From: a virus
DNA: 31,171 nucleotides
Virus record (IMG/VR): IMGVR_UViG_3300043398_000464
Location: 1 to 31,171 of that record
Direction: 5' to 3' (one strand)
The notes under the pieces are model-generated. The model did not search any database. It had not been told where the DNA came from and worked only from the letters and a program-made list of their open reading frames with translations. The position numbers and the translations under genes are program-made. Every line of letters begins with the position of its first letter. Within the stretch, counting starts at the first letter, position 1. This document shows, piece by piece, positions 3,889 to 8,805 of this stretch.

Positions 3889-4217
3889 TCTGCGTCTCGT
3901 AAAGGTTTCGTTTTTTCTAGACCTATCAGATCCCAGTCTTTTTTTACCTCTTGATTTGTCCTCTTCGGACCCCCGCCCTTAACAGGAGCGCAACGTTTAG
4001 CTGCGAATGCCTGGATCTCATCTAAGGGCTTATTGACTTCAGCCACCTCGAAAAAACGCACGTTATTGATCGCAATCCACAGGCCCCGTTTGAGTTTGTG
4101 GCATCTATATACTTCCCCGGCTGAAATCGCTTTCATGAAATTTACCATCTCTTCCTGAGGCACACGGACGCGTATTGCTTTGTCGTCTATAAATGAAAAA
4201 TCAATTGCGTAATACAT
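3873..4217 (-). CDS. Hypothetical phage protein, 114 aa
   Basis: An ATG at 4232 is possible, but AAGGA with five-base spacing selects the ATG at 4217 (MYYAIDFSFIDDKAIRVRVP). The protein begins with a strand-rich segment ending GLWIAINNVRFFEVAEV around residue 65, reminiscent of a small beta-barrel, then a basic stretch (CAPVKGGGPKRTNQEVKKDW) and a short tail. I do not recognise a family. It is divergent from the first winged-helix gene across 66 bp that hold a small palindrome, so the two may share regulation. It overlaps a doubtful downstream ORF by 16 bp. Confidence 0.7.
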   Translation of the reverse strand: MYYAIDFSFIDDKAIRVRVPQEEMVNFMKAISAGEVYRCHKLKRGLWIAINNVRFFEVAEVNKPLDEIQAFAAKRCAPVKGGGPKRTNQEVKKDWDLIGLEKTKPLRDAEWLPS

Positions 4218-4236
4218 AATATTCCTTAACATGCTC

Positions 4237-4253
4237 GGTATGAATAGAATACC
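4237..4253. promoter_or_regulatory. Palindromic operator-like site
   Basis: GGTAT (4237-4241) and ATACC (4249-4253) form an inverted repeat centred in the 66-bp divergent spacer between the 114-residue gene and the first winged-helix gene. Short palindromes in such spacers often bind phage repressors; here it is inference from position and symmetry only. Confidence 0.3.
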
Positions 4254-4283
4254 AAAAATGCCGATTTGACTCTAGGAGGCAAT

Positions 4284-4601
4284 ATGGACGAAAAGGATCG
4301 ACCCATACCGGACGCGGTTTTAGATTACTGGCTACGCAAACTAACTCCTCACGAGTTCAGAATGCTTGTGTACCTCTTGCAGAAGACCTATTGCGTGCGA
4401 TGTGACTTTGTCAAGCTAAGCATTTCGGAAACGGCTCGGGAGCTTAGGACGACCGCTGGTATCATTAATCTGGATCTAGACGGACTTCTATCAGAAAACT
4501 TGATCAATCTTATGCCTGACGAGGAGGATGGTTGTTTACGAATCGTGCTTAGGGAGTGGATTTTTCTGAATAGGTTTCCCGACGGATGGGATGACAATTA
4601 A
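4284..4601 (+). CDS. Small winged-helix-like protein, 105 aa
   Basis: An in-frame TTG lies upstream, but AGGAGG four bases before the ATG at 4284 fixes the start (MDEKDRPIPDAVLDYW). Residues about 18-95 read as a winged helix: LTPHEFRMLVYLLQKTY, then KLSISETARELRTTAGIINL as the recognition region, and EDGCLRIVLREWIFLN as the wing and end strand. The layout is the same as the domains of the next two genes (4886-5584 and 5638-6783), so the three look like diverged paralogues. The likely role is DNA binding in replication control or initiation. The gene ends within the A-tract of a leftward terminator. Confidence 0.75.
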   Translation: MDEKDRPIPDAVLDYWLRKLTPHEFRMLVYLLQKTYCVRCDFVKLSISETARELRTTAGIINLDLDGLLSENLINLMPDEEDGCLRIVLREWIFLNRFPDGWDDN

Positions 4602-4625
4602 AAAAGGGCGGTCGATGGGCCGCCC
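4600..4625 (-). terminator. Leftward intrinsic terminator 1
   Basis: On the plus strand six A's (4600-4605) precede GGGCGG (4606-4611), an 8-base loop and CCGCCC (4620-4625). Read leftward this is a GC-rich stem followed by TTTTTT, the classical terminator form. There is no T-run on the right, so it is not a rightward terminator for the gene that ends at 4601. No leftward protein gene lies upstream of it, which is why a leftward small RNA is proposed. Confidence 0.7.
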
Positions 4626-4718
4626 TGCGCTAACACACGATTGGTATATGAATGGGATCGCCAAGGAGCGAGATCCAATCGCGACATGACATCTGCGAGT
4701 TATTCGTCTATCCGTCTA
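4600..4718 (-). ncRNA. Candidate leftward structured small RNA, about 119 nt
   Basis: A leftward promoter-like sequence (4725-4753) would start transcription near 4718, and terminator 1 would end it near 4600. The interval has no convincing ORF and is strongly structured: CGATTGG and CCAATCG form a perfect 7-bp inverted repeat spanning about 4638-4681, and GGATC and GATCC form a nested, partly competing stem. Promoter, structure and terminator in order are the usual signature of a bacterial small RNA. All three were found by eye, and the target is unknown. It may instead be a structured leader on the plus strand for the 4886-5584 gene. Confidence 0.4.
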
Positions 4719-4724
4719 GGCAGG

Positions 4725-4753
4725 ACCATAGCATTCCTATCGCAGCAAGTCAA
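4725..4753 (-). promoter_or_regulatory. Leftward sigma70-like promoter for the small RNA
   Basis: Read leftward, TTGACT (4753-4748) is separated by exactly 17 bp from TATGGT (4730-4725). These match the consensus at 5 of 6 and 4 of 6 positions. No leftward protein gene follows within 500 bp, so its likely product is the short RNA ending at terminator 1. Confidence 0.45.
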
Positions 4754-4771
4754 AGATTTTTAGTTGCCCGC

Positions 4772-4793
4772 AATCCTATGTTGAGTTAGGATT
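4772..4793. promoter_or_regulatory. Inverted repeat in the spacer before 4886-5584
   Basis: AATCCTA (4772-4778) and TAGGATT (4787-4793) are perfect inverted arms around an 8-base centre. Only a TT follows on the right, too short for a terminator. An operator for one of the neighbouring winged-helix proteins is possible. The rest of the 284-bp spacer at 4602-4885 holds the candidate small RNA, its promoter and terminator 2, and no protein gene was found in it. Confidence 0.35.
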
Positions 4794-4808
4794 TTGCGTT
4801 TCGATGCC

Positions 4809-4841
4809 AAAAAAAAGACCCCACAACACAGGGTTGCGGGG
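4809..4841 (-). terminator. Leftward intrinsic terminator 2
   Basis: Eight A's (4809-4816) precede a stem of CCCC-A-CAAC (4819-4827) with GTTG-C-GGGG (4833-4841), one internal A/C mismatch and a 5-base loop. Read leftward it is a GC-rich hairpin followed by T8 (after a short TC). It stands about 45 bp before the start of the 4886-5584 gene and would end any RNA copied leftward from that gene's 5' end. Confidence 0.68.
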
Positions 4842-4885
4842 CCCAACAAGGATTAATGCTCTACTAAAAGGAGCATAAAATTAAT

Positions 4886-5584
4886 ATGTCTATTGGTATA
4901 TCAGAAGCTGCAATTTCTTGCAGCGAAAATCAACAGTACGGAATGAAAAATATGGAAGAGCCAAGGAATGGTTCGTATTTGCACATACTTAAGTCGGTTG
5001 ACGAGGTCATGGACAATCCGTGGATAGTAGACAACTCAAAAGAATTATTTAAAAAGATTAGAGATATCGCTGGGCCAAGTCGACATTATATTGAGGTAGA
5101 GAAATCGCCTGGAAGGATTTCATTGCCGGGCAACAGCGAATCAGAAAACTTGGAAATGCAGTTCACAATAGGAAGTCTGTACCGCAAGGGTGCATTGCTG
5201 TTGAGCGACAATAAGATATTAGAAAATACTTCACATCATGATAAAGAATCTACTATATGGGGATGTATGGGCTGGGGAAATGCAAATGCACTACTCACCT
5301 CACAAGAGGTATTTATACTAAATAAATTATATCAGCAATATTGCGTGTTTGGAGAACTCGGAATATGTGTTGATTCAGACGAGGTTATAAGTAAGCGAAT
5401 AGGCATCACTATAGAGGGTATACAAAAATACAAAGTCTTACTCTCTGTTGCCAGAGAAAAACTAGAGGGCGGATCCTTTATCTCTATTGGTAAACGTTAT
5501 AAGGAAAATGGTGAGAGAGACACAGACGTCATCGTTTTCCACGAGCTGAATCTTCTTACCATGTCATATAATAGAACACGATAA
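4886..5584 (+). CDS. Winged-helix-like replication-region protein, 232 aa
   Basis: The ATG at 4886 follows an AAAGGAGC Shine-Dalgarno with rather long spacing (about 12 bases). The N-terminal half is polar with no recognised domain. Residues about 135-225 (LTSQEVFILNKLYQQYC, then SKRIGITIEGIQKYKVLL, then GGSFISIGKRYKENGERD) match in layout the winged helix of the downstream initiator, including the wing 'FIS....Y..NGeR.tDvI'. It may be an accessory initiator or regulator of replication. It is flanked on both sides by leftward terminators, and a leftward promoter-like sequence overlaps its first codons, so antisense control of its start is possible. Confidence 0.75.
   Translation: MSIGISEAAISCSENQQYGMKNMEEPRNGSYLHILKSVDEVMDNPWIVDNSKELFKKIRDIAGPSRHYIEVEKSPGRISLPGNSESENLEMQFTIGSLYRKGALLLSDNKILENTSHHDKESTIWGCMGWGNANALLTSQEVFILNKLYQQYCVFGELGICVDSDEVISKRIGITIEGIQKYKVLLSVAREKLEGGSFISIGKRYKENGERDTDVIVFHELNLLTMSYNRTR
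4895..4923 (-). promoter_or_regulatory. Weak leftward promoter inside the start of 4886-5584
   Basis: Leftward, CTGCAA (4923-4918), 17 bp, then TATACC (4900-4895) with a TG one base before it (extended -10 form). Consensus matches are 3 of 6 and 4 of 6, so it is weak alone. Transcription would start near 4888 and end at terminator 2, giving a roughly 80-nt RNA antisense to the ribosome-binding site and start codon. The reading depends on the parallel with the stronger case at 5586-5729. Confidence 0.25.
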
Positions 5585-5585
5585 C

Positions 5586-5623
5586 AAAAAAAAGCCACCC
5601 ACTATATGTAACTGATGGGTGGC
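5586..5623 (-). terminator. Leftward intrinsic terminator 3
   Basis: Eight A's (5586-5593) precede a perfect 8-bp stem, GCCACCCA (5594-5601) and TGGGTGGC (5616-5623), with a 14-base loop. Leftward it is followed by T8. The right arm ends three bases before the AAGGA ribosome-binding site of the initiator gene, so the hairpin may also form in that gene's own leader. Confidence 0.75.
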
Positions 5624-5695
5624 TTAAGGATAAAAACATGTCTGCAAGCTTAGCATCATCGTGTATTTCTAGCAACGAATTAGATAGCACGACCA
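5586..5695 (-). ncRNA. Candidate antisense RNA to the initiator leader, about 110 nt
   Basis: A leftward promoter (5702-5729) and terminator 3 bound a short interval with no leftward ORF. The predicted RNA would be complementary to the initiator's leader, its AAGGA ribosome-binding site and about its first 19 codons. Antisense RNAs of this size that cover an initiator's translation start control copy number in several plasmid families (CopA and RepA of R1, for example). Neither the RNA nor its effect is shown by sequence alone; spurious promoter matches in A/T-rich DNA are the main risk. Confidence 0.4.
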
Positions 5696-6783
5696 ATTTA
5701 AATAATAAACTTACAAACAAAAGAATCAACTCAGGTTTCACCATATTTCAAAGAATTTTGTTTTCTTTGCCACTGTCCGGAGATGCACTGATAATATTTA
5801 TGTTTTTACGAGATGTGGCTGGAGAGCACGGGAAATGCTTCATGTCAAATGCGAAAATAGCCGCAGGTAGTGGTAGATCAATACGCACCGTCATAAATGC
5901 AAAAAAACGACTGTCTATGCCGATGAAAGAGCTGAAGGGGAGGTCTTTGATCAGCTGCACGCCACAGTATGAATCGAACGGAAATAGGGGATCAGACTTA
6001 ATCAAACTCGTAGATATTTGGGATCTGAACCATGAGCACGTAGTGTCGAAAGTGCGAGCGCAAAAAATCGACGTTGAAAAACAAAATAGAGATGCAAATT
6101 TTGCACCACCCCCCACCCCCCCTTGTGCAAATTTTGCACACAAACAAGAACCCTTTTCTTGTCTTAAAGAGAATATAAGAGAAGAACTAAAACAGGGAGC
6201 AGAGCTCCCCTGTCTCTGTTCTCCTCCAAAGAGGGAGTCTCAAAAGCCCAAAAAAGCAAGACTATGCGAACTGGAGGACATCCAGGATCTCATCGATGAA
6301 GGAAAAATATCCCTTCAAGAGGCGAAGCAGCTTTGCCTGAGTGGAAACGCACTGCAAATCCGCATGGCTGTAGAGGCAATGGATCAACCCTTGGCTAGAG
6401 GTCGCCGAATTTTTAACCGGGTCGCTTGGCTACGGGCTGCAATACGCGATCTATATGTCCCGTCTACGAAATCGCCCCGAAAATTCCACGATAAACGCAC
6501 TCCAGGTCAGGTCGATAGAGAAACGACCGCGGCTAGATCGTCCGCAATCGGTAAAATATGCGCACAGCTTCCAGAGGTCCAAAAGATGGCAGCTCAGCGA
6601 GACTGGATCATCGGATGGATGGACGGCTACCTATGCGCTCAGGGACCAAATGGAGAAATGTGGACGATAAGTACTGACGACCCCAAAAATCTCATCGACG
6701 AGGCAATCAAGATGTCCAAGCATATTCAGCAAATACCCATAAACCCATCTATAGTGGCCCAGATTAAACGATCGCAATGCTAG
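5638..6783 (+). CDS. Phage/plasmid-type replication initiator with winged helix and embedded iterons
   Basis: AAGGA eight bases before the ATG supports this start. After a polar leader of about 40 residues, residues 40-135 form a winged-helix domain (LSGDALIIFMFLRDVAGEHG, SNAKIAAGSGRSIRTVIN, then RSLISCTPQYESNGNRGSDL). This is followed by a linker whose DNA holds two iteron-like repeats and encodes ANFAPPPTPPCANFAH (153-168), then a charged spacer and a helical C-terminal domain from about residue 205. N-terminal winged-helix proteins with the origin inside the linker-coding DNA are the plan of lambda O and of many HTH replication proteins of phages and plasmids. It should bind the origin and recruit replication proteins, though no helicase or primase gene is visible nearby. 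It is the last of three related genes. Confidence 0.75.
   Translation: MSASLASSCISSNELDSTTNLNNKLTNKRINSGFTIFQRILFSLPLSGDALIIFMFLRDVAGEHGKCFMSNAKIAAGSGRSIRTVINAKKRLSMPMKELKGRSLISCTPQYESNGNRGSDLIKLVDIWDLNHEHVVSKVRAQKIDVEKQNRDANFAPPPTPPCANFAHKQEPFSCLKENIREELKQGAELPCLCSPPKRESQKPKKARLCELEDIQDLIDEGKISLQEAKQLCLSGNALQIRMAVEAMDQPLARGRRIFNRVAWLRAAIRDLYVPSTKSPRKFHDKRTPGQVDRETTAARSSAIGKICAQLPEVQKMAAQRDWIIGWMDGYLCAQGPNGEMWTISTDDPKNLIDEAIKMSKHIQQIPINPSIVAQIKRSQC
5702..5729 (-). promoter_or_regulatory. Leftward promoter inside the initiator gene
   Basis: Leftward, TTGATT (5729-5724), 16 bp, then TATTAT (5707-5702): 4 of 6 and 5 of 6 consensus matches. The start point would be near 5695, about 100 bp before terminator 3. 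It lies within A/T-rich coding sequence, which raises the chance of a spurious match. Confidence 0.4.
6093..6138. repeat. Iteron pair, candidate replication origin
   Basis: TGCAAATTTTGCA occurs at 6093-6105 and again identically at 6126-6138, a spacing of 33 bp (about three helical turns and exactly 11 codons). Each copy is a near-palindrome and the second is extended by a flanking G and C. Between them runs an unusual C-rich tract, C6-A-C7 (6109-6122). The DNA lies in the linker-coding part of the initiator gene, where lambda-O-type origins sit, and is followed by an A-rich stretch near 6165-6195 that could melt. Binding and origin activity are inferred. Confidence 0.55.
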
Positions 6784-7691: not shown

Positions 7692-8024
7692 ATGTATCCA
7701 GAAACAGAAAATATCATCGAGGCTACAGAGCAATCAGTACTAGCTCTTGAGTGTCAATCTGCTTTACATCCATCTAGACGATGCAAAGCTACAATTCTAG
7801 CTGCGCTAACACTCATAGATGATCTTACACAGTCATGGTTTCTAGAGGATCTAACAGTGTCTGATTTGATCGATTTAGACGCAGGCGAGTTCGAGAGTGT
7901 CATCGAAGAGCTAAATTACCACATCAAAGCTGCTCAAAAATCTATCGACGACTACAACGAGCGTTCTATGCCATGCGACGGGCAGACTGCTTGGCAAGAC
8001 ACCGCGCACCTATTTGGAGTTTAA
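7692..8024 (+). CDS. Hypothetical acidic protein, 110 aa
   Basis: First gene behind early promoter 2, with a modest CAGGG ribosome-binding site. It is acidic and probably helical throughout (NIIEATEQSVLALECQSAL, then LIDLDAGEFESVIEELNYH). No known family is recognised. The stop TAA is one base away from the RecT start (TAACATG), so the two are translationally linked. A role as a recombination accessory protein or host-nuclease inhibitor is possible from position only. Confidence 0.75.
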   Translation: MYPETENIIEATEQSVLALECQSALHPSRRCKATILAALTLIDDLTQSWFLEDLTVSDLIDLDAGEFESVIEELNYHIKAAQKSIDDYNERSMPCDGQTAWQDTAHLFGV

Positions 8025-8025
8025 C

Positions 8026-8805
8026 ATGAGTAGCCGCCAAGAATTAATCACTGTAGATGCATTCACATTAGAGGCTGAGCGCTCATTTGAGCTCGCACAA
8101 AAGCTACATACCCAAAAGCACTACGCTAAACTAGGTATGGATGGCATTCTAGCTATCCTTGCACAAGCTAAAGCCATTGGCATTGATCCAGTACGAGCTT
8201 TAAATGGGGGGTGCTACTACGTTAATGGCAAGGTAGAGCTATCTGCACAGATGATGAATCAACTGATACGTAAAGCCGGTCATAGTATCACCGTAGACAA
8301 AAAATCAGATGATACCTGCTACACCCTGCATGGCAAGCGACATGATAATGGGGATACCATGATGGTGTCCTTTAGTATCGATGAAGCAAAAAAGGCTAAT
8401 ATTAGTAAAGGTTTTGCATGGCTCAACTATCCTGGAGATATGCTATTTGCTCGCGCACTAAGCCGTTTAGCTCGTCGCCTATTTGCAGATGTGATAGGAG
8501 ACTGCTATGTAGACGGAGAAATCTCTAGCGCAATAGAGGCGGAAAAAGCGATGTGCAAAAACACGCCAGAGAAAGAAGTAGATGTAACTATACATGTGCC
8601 AGAAAAACAACTGCATGTTGAACTATGCTCTCAATCGCAATGCGACGAACTTTTAGCATTAGTCTCGATGGATAGTGTGCTGAAGGAAAATCTACAGAAC
8701 TTCTTGAGCTCTCGATTCGATGGCGATATGCAAAAGTTGCCGTCCAACGTCATAAATGGAATGATTGCGAGATTGAAAAAGCTACAGGAGAGTACATGCG
8801 AATAG
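8026..8805 (+). CDS. recT: RecT-family single-strand annealing protein
   Basis: An in-frame TTG at 8014 could start translation, but GGAG ahead of the ATG at 8026 is a better match (MSSRQELITVDAFTLEAERS). The 259-residue protein shows RecT-type motifs: ALNGGCYYVNGKVELSAQMM (58-77), a strand pair with ITVDKKSDDTCYTLHGK (88-104) and the core WLNYPGDMLFARALSRLARR (132-151). RecT proteins anneal complementary single strands made by a partner exonuclease and so promote homologous recombination. The next gene overlaps it by 10 bp and encodes that exonuclease. The C-terminal third (from about residue 195) is a less conserved helical region. Confidence 0.87.
   Translation: MSSRQELITVDAFTLEAERSFELAQKLHTQKHYAKLGMDGILAILAQAKAIGIDPVRALNGGCYYVNGKVELSAQMMNQLIRKAGHSITVDKKSDDTCYTLHGKRHDNGDTMMVSFSIDEAKKANISKGFAWLNYPGDMLFARALSRLARRLFADVIGDCYVDGEISSAIEAEKAMCKNTPEKEVDVTIHVPEKQLHVELCSQSQCDELLALVSMDSVLKENLQNFLSSRFDGDMQKLPSNVINGMIARLKKLQESTCE

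Follow-up and report, generated by a model that had tools for sequence, protein, structure and literature searches.

In the window, the 31,171-nt stretch of virus DNA analysed here, a leftward intrinsic terminator stands between the replication initiator gene and the gene preceding it (Table 1). We read it as the end of a short leftward non-coding transcript that, like OOP of lambda and P22, starts at the initiator gene or shortly within it. The RNA would cut initiator translation, or its synthesis would hamper rightward early transcription. We put the probability of this reading at roughly 0.45. For the phage group of the window, reached through portal and RecT, it is rather likely that an undescribed family of leftward sRNAs is encoded between a cro-like gene and the initiator. 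The loop of each terminator and a single-stranded stretch of ~11 nt would pair with ribosome-binding sites (RBSs) in the same phage, at between one and three early genes and above all at the gene before RecT, with loop, stretch and targets co-evolving, and the units of the window, including the one ending at 5586, would be a diverged counterpart.

Table 1. Features of the early region of the window, in order of position
Feature	Position	Strand	Basis and details
Small winged-HTH-like gene	4284..4601	+	HTH by eye and weak similarity to a relative; SD TAGGAGG, ATG 4284
Third leftward terminator, at stop codon of gene 4284-4601	4598..4625	-	Strict scan
Best leftward promoter of the region, TTGACT-17-TATGGT, extended -10	4725..4753	-	TSS ~4719, P = 0.020
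Second leftward terminator, apical loop CCTGT	4809..4843	-	Strict scan
Upstream gene, C-terminal part matching the HTH region of the initiator (34-35% identity)	4886..5584	+	Sequence comparison
Leftward intrinsic terminator, hairpin and T8	5586..5623	-	Fold energy, shuffles, strict scan
Replication initiator, HTH_36 at residues 46-92	5638..6783	+	Profile match
Candidate leftward promoter TTGCTA-17-TAAGCT, extended -10	5647..5675	-	Weight matrix, TSS ~5641, P = 0.083
Leftward promoter of the preliminary description, TTGATT-16-TATTAT	5702..5729	-	Chance level, TSS ~5695, RNA ~110 nt
Gene before RecT, positional counterpart of the main sRNA target in relatives	7692..8024	+	RBS ACACGAACAGGG
RecT-like annealing protein, query for relatives	8026..8805	+	Profile/alignment

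Genome and relatives

Genes of portal, large terminase, RecT and YqaJ type are present in the window, a virus record from a tailed-phage genome. A sister contig (L136, 83-85% identity), whose match ends at window position 782, joins the end of the window (31171) to its start across ~4.7 kb absent from the window. The genome is therefore circular or permuted, with a size of ~36 kb.

In the collection of relatives, the portal led to 58 loci and a RecT alignment to 30 viral loci, and a RecT search of genome collections gave three contigs (L138, L139 and L140). Two of these three lie in MAGs of Chlamydiae and one in a MAG of Verrucomicrobia; as host assignment by binning is weak evidence, they are possibly tailed phages of PVC bacteria. 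The search through the portal found no prophage hosts. Except for one distant case, conservation of the initiator and the upstream gene does not extend to the relatives.

Three HTH-type genes (starting at 4284, 4886 and 5638) follow each other in the window with leftward terminators between them, and two of the three share similar HTH stretches. A similar arrangement is seen in L112 and L123. Within the initiator gene, two identical palindromic repeats (TGCAAATTTTGCAC, positions 6093-6106 and 6126-6139) sit between the HTH part and the C-terminal part, like the iterons of lambda O, and are putative origin repeats. Further to the right GAAAAACGCTTGC followed by TAAAATAGG occurs at ~6900 and again at ~7600, ahead of genes 6984 and 7692; this pair is probably a repeated rightward promoter.

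Terminators in the window

The leftward strand of 5586-5623 carries a GC-rich hairpin, GCCACCC-ATCAGTTACATATAGT-GGGTGGC, followed by T8. Its stem of GCCACCC/GGGTGGC plus two further A-U pairs has a folding energy of ~-17 kcal/mol (z -4.8), and none of 200 shuffled sequences was equally stable. The terminator is real, and on this point the preliminary description, which had noted a leftward perfect-stem terminator with T8, is borne out. The T-tract ends at 5586, adjoining the stop codon of the upstream gene, which ends at 5584, and the element lies 15 bases 5' of the initiator ATG.

A strict scan found seven terminators in the 31 kb, against 0-4 in shuffled sequences. Three of the seven are leftward, lie within ~1 kb of each other (4598-4625, 4809-4843 and 5586-5623) and are interspersed among the small HTH-type genes. 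Orthologues of the 5586 element were found neither among viral contigs and phages nor among plasmids and related records.

Candidate promoters and the predicted RNA

The preliminary description placed the start of the transcript at TTGATT-16-TATTAT. This promoter is present at the position given (5729-5702), but its strength is at chance level: it matches the consensus at 9 of 12 positions, has a weight-matrix score of 7.9, and such sites number 5 in the scan against 5.0 expected. A higher-scoring leftward site (9.2), TTGCTA-17-TAAGCT with an extended -10 at 5675-5647, overlies the first codons of the initiator in a pO-like position and would give an RNA of ~55 nt.

As a control, the scanner recovered the oop units of lambda (TSS 38677, terminator 38594-38629) and P22. 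The best leftward promoter in 5624-5800 reached P = 0.083 against shuffles. In the identical test the real oop promoters had P values of 0.022 (lambda) and 0.113 (P22), so on sequence alone the promoter of the 5586 unit stays a candidate.

The geometry first described holds, with the initiator ATG at 5638 and 19 codons spanned if transcription started near 5695. The absence of a leftward ORF holds in part: no SD-bearing leftward ORF of at least 30 codons was found over the initiator leader, but a 62-codon ATG frame is open on the leftward strand (5744-5556) and passes through the terminator. By construction the predicted RNA, of 55 or 110 nt, is complementary to the initiator leader, SD and start codon, and its folding gave no second strong stem-loop.

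We propose that a leftward transcript begins at ~5641 or ~5695 and stops at 5586-5623. With its full complementarity to SD and start codon, the RNA would lower translation of the initiator. By another route, leftward transcription itself may interfere with rightward early transcription towards the origin.

Probable leftward units in the early regions of relatives

Twenty-four early regions, those of the relatives and that of the window, were compared, near-identical duplicates being left out. The interval counted runs from the stop codon of the cro-like HTH gene to the initiator start. Strong terminators in these regions are antisense in 34 cases and sense in 1, with at least one antisense terminator in 22 of the 24 regions. 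When all regions were shuffled ten times, 0-3 antisense and 0-1 sense terminators appeared, ~1 being expected, and elsewhere in the genomes of the relatives strong terminators occur at 0.11 per kb, both strands combined.

The leftward promoter signal summed over 21 regions is raised between -150 and +90 of the initiator start (z 3.6, above 100 of 100 shuffles), an interval that was picked after viewing the binned promoter profile. The same 21 regions show no such excess on the rightward strand, nor in the intervals to either side. Because of the 34:1 bias of the terminators and this promoter signal, the phage group of the window probably has, as a common trait, a leftward transcription unit where lambda has oop. 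The two strands of the long leftward intervals have similar folding energies, which are little informative.

A rival reading is that of an insulator, in which the hairpin does no more than halt stray leftward transcription before the upstream HTH gene, with no dedicated promoter and no RNA function. In the mapped regions, measured from the stop codon of the rightward HTH gene before them, the 3' ends of the terminators lie at ~-8 to +57 nt, which would keep leftward RNA out of that gene; the three leftward terminators in series in the window also fit, as does a promoter of the 5586 unit that is not significant. On the other side stand the enrichment of leftward promoter signal near the initiator and, in the relatives, the co-variation of the loop and the strand upstream of it with their targets (see below), for which an insulator has no need. 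We consider an insulating role possible, though doubtful.

A candidate sRNA in the relatives

Within the leftward interval of the relatives, mostly 300-450 nt, DNA conservation is recognisable only in the last 40-75 nt. This 3' module ends in the terminator hairpin; ahead of that come an unpaired CUCGCGUGUAG-like stretch of ~11 nt and, in several members, a stem-loop. The terminator stem is free to vary, but its apical region retains TGGT in 16 of 22 cases. Members of the candidate family are found in early regions L089-L102, L114, L124, L125, L135 and L138.

RBSs of the same genome repeatedly contain the reverse complements of stretch and loop together. The target is CTATACGCGAGGAGAACCACC-ATG in G029, CTATACGCGAGGAGAACCAAT-ATG in G020 (own loop ATTGGTTC) and ACACACAGGAGCACC-ATG in G008 (own loop ATGGTGC). 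In L124 it is AGCTAGACAC...GGAGTACC, where the own stretch is GTGTCTAGCT and the own loop GGTACTC. For five loop variants or more, the phage's own target has the matching complement. Most often the target gene is the one preceding RecT. In G026 the stretch is found at RecT itself, and the initiator of G005 has the complement of the loop (ACACGGAGCACCACC-ATG).

Own pairing was compared with swapped pairing over 16 phages, and 0 of 5000 permutations reached it, be it in energy, stretch or loop, each taken separately. RecT was used in this test as the target in G003, a choice that is probably wrong and works against the claim; another leftward gene start carries the motif there. The complement of the loop 7-mer of the own phage is held by 21 of 603 SD-bearing starts, against 0.13% for permuted 7-mers, the phages being akin and the matches thus not independent events.

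Given the joint recurrence of the two complements and the swap test, the relatives probably encode a trans-acting sRNA that would block translation initiation through two contact sites. The terminator loop and the single strand upstream of it are predicted to pair with the RBSs of the gene before RecT, of RecT, and in one phage of the initiator. The RNA appears to go beyond a cis effect on the initiator and to act in trans on RBSs of further early genes. No Rfam entry matched it, and a phage switch of this kind is not described in the literature and RNA library searched. With Rfam, the window had no match at gathering thresholds, and the relatives and positions 4200-6000 gave low-scoring matches only, far under gathering scores.

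A second class of sites, GAACCAC-~22 nt-CTACACGCGAGGC...TGATCATCC, was seen outside the early region in G026, G029, G011, G010, G020, G013 and G014.

Predicted leftward RNAs of the window as possible pairing RNAs

The covariance model of the 3' module of the relatives, whose pairing register is one column off and whose pair counts were left unused, gave no match at 5586 and nothing significant elsewhere in the window. The terminator at 5586 has no TGGT-type loop with a CGCGTGTAG-like strand 5' of the hairpin, and no unit of the window has an own loop and seed complementary to early-gene RBSs as in the relatives. We take the window unit to be a diverged, more cis-acting member of the group of leftward units.

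One of the leftward RNAs of the window could still pair with early-gene RBSs as in the relatives, that from 4719 to 4598 (~120 nt as predicted from TSS and terminator) or the one ending at 4809 being likelier candidates than that ending at 5586. The former has the best leftward promoter of the region, and immediately 5' of the 4598 hairpin CGTGTGTTAG resembles the motif of the relatives, but the model match there (4601-4638) has an E value of 3 and is not significant. The CCTGT loop of the latter is complementary to ACAGG in the RBSs of 2611, 6984, 7692 and 8796, that is, 4 of 14 early starts, but ACAGG overlaps the common SD core. A two-site match like that of the relatives is lacking: none of the three leftward RNAs has two-site complementarity to any RBS except the own overlapped one, and the loop and flank at 5586 match no RBS beyond that of the overlapped initiator. 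To the RBS of gene 7692-8024 the leftward RNAs of the window have only short complementarity. The 4809 loop and the 4598 unit are weak leads for target pairing, and we regard a trans-acting RNA in the window itself as unlikely.

Within the rightward mRNA the hairpin could also serve as a leader or 3'-end structure, for it can fold on the + strand beside the initiator SD, but with T8 on the leftward side only and the orientation bias of 34 to 1 in the group this is very improbable.

If the reading of the 5586 terminator as the end of an OOP-like unit and that of the sRNA family are true, a leftward RNA unit where regulator and initiator genes meet is not confined to lambdoid phages but recurs in others. 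In the phage group of the window it would have become a regulator with several targets, linking replication to recombination genes. The co-varying pairs of loop and target make a direct mutational test possible.

Comparison with known systems

The preliminary description had compared the unit with the countertranscript control of plasmid copy number, as in CopA/RepA, and had thought it unusual in a phage. The likeness to CopA/CopT of R1 lies in an antisense unit over the initiator leader, and the circular or permuted genome of ~36 kb would be compatible with it. The differences are in initiator type, genome type and layout. Instead of a plasmid Rep-type protein, the window encodes an HTH_36 initiator with weak profile matches to phage O/DnaD-like initiators, and the initiator has no match in 72,556 plasmid records; packaging and portal genes are present in a lambda-like layout, and the predicted RNA has no second strong stem-loop. 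Copy control of this type is highly improbable. What stays plausible of the antisense proposal, from the terminators in 22 of 24 regions and the promoter signal over 21, is a leftward non-coding unit over the initiator leader. Nor is the place unusual in a phage, as lambda and P22 have oop at the matching position (PMC3985674, PMC5869508), and so has phage BTP1 (PMC7067206).

The 5586 unit is a probable OOP-like leftward unit. With OOP of lambda and P22 it shares its place, an intrinsic leftward terminator between the preceding regulator gene, at the 3' end of which it lies, and an O-like gene, and the lack of an ORF, and it would act in a similar way. The candidate leftward promoter at the initiator start (in the window at P = 0.083) and the putative origin repeats inside the initiator gene would be further likenesses. 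No sequence similarity between the two was shown. Lambda OOP overlaps cII by 52 nt; in the window the terminator comes to its end where the upstream gene has its stop codon. Antisense overlap with the upstream gene, tested for filing the unit as a member of OOP, was not found, and we do not count the unit as an OOP member. Most relatives differ from OOP in their interval of 300-450 nt and in an RNA that appears to pair with other early genes. The lambda pO promoter has been reported to affect replication through convergent transcription (PMC3985674). Inhibition of replication has been reported to need an intact oop sequence, and the role of OOP in it has been described as in search of explanation (PMC3349717).

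The predicted RNA of the relatives resembles C4 of P1/P7 and sar of P22, in which a phage RNA pairs with a phage mRNA and blocks its translation. C4 pairs around the RBS, and its complementary stretches are probably in loops (PMC12197685). Unlike these RNAs, which act on an antirepressor, that of the relatives would act on the recombination operon and, once, on the initiator; it would pair through its terminator loop, and it lies behind a cro-like gene.
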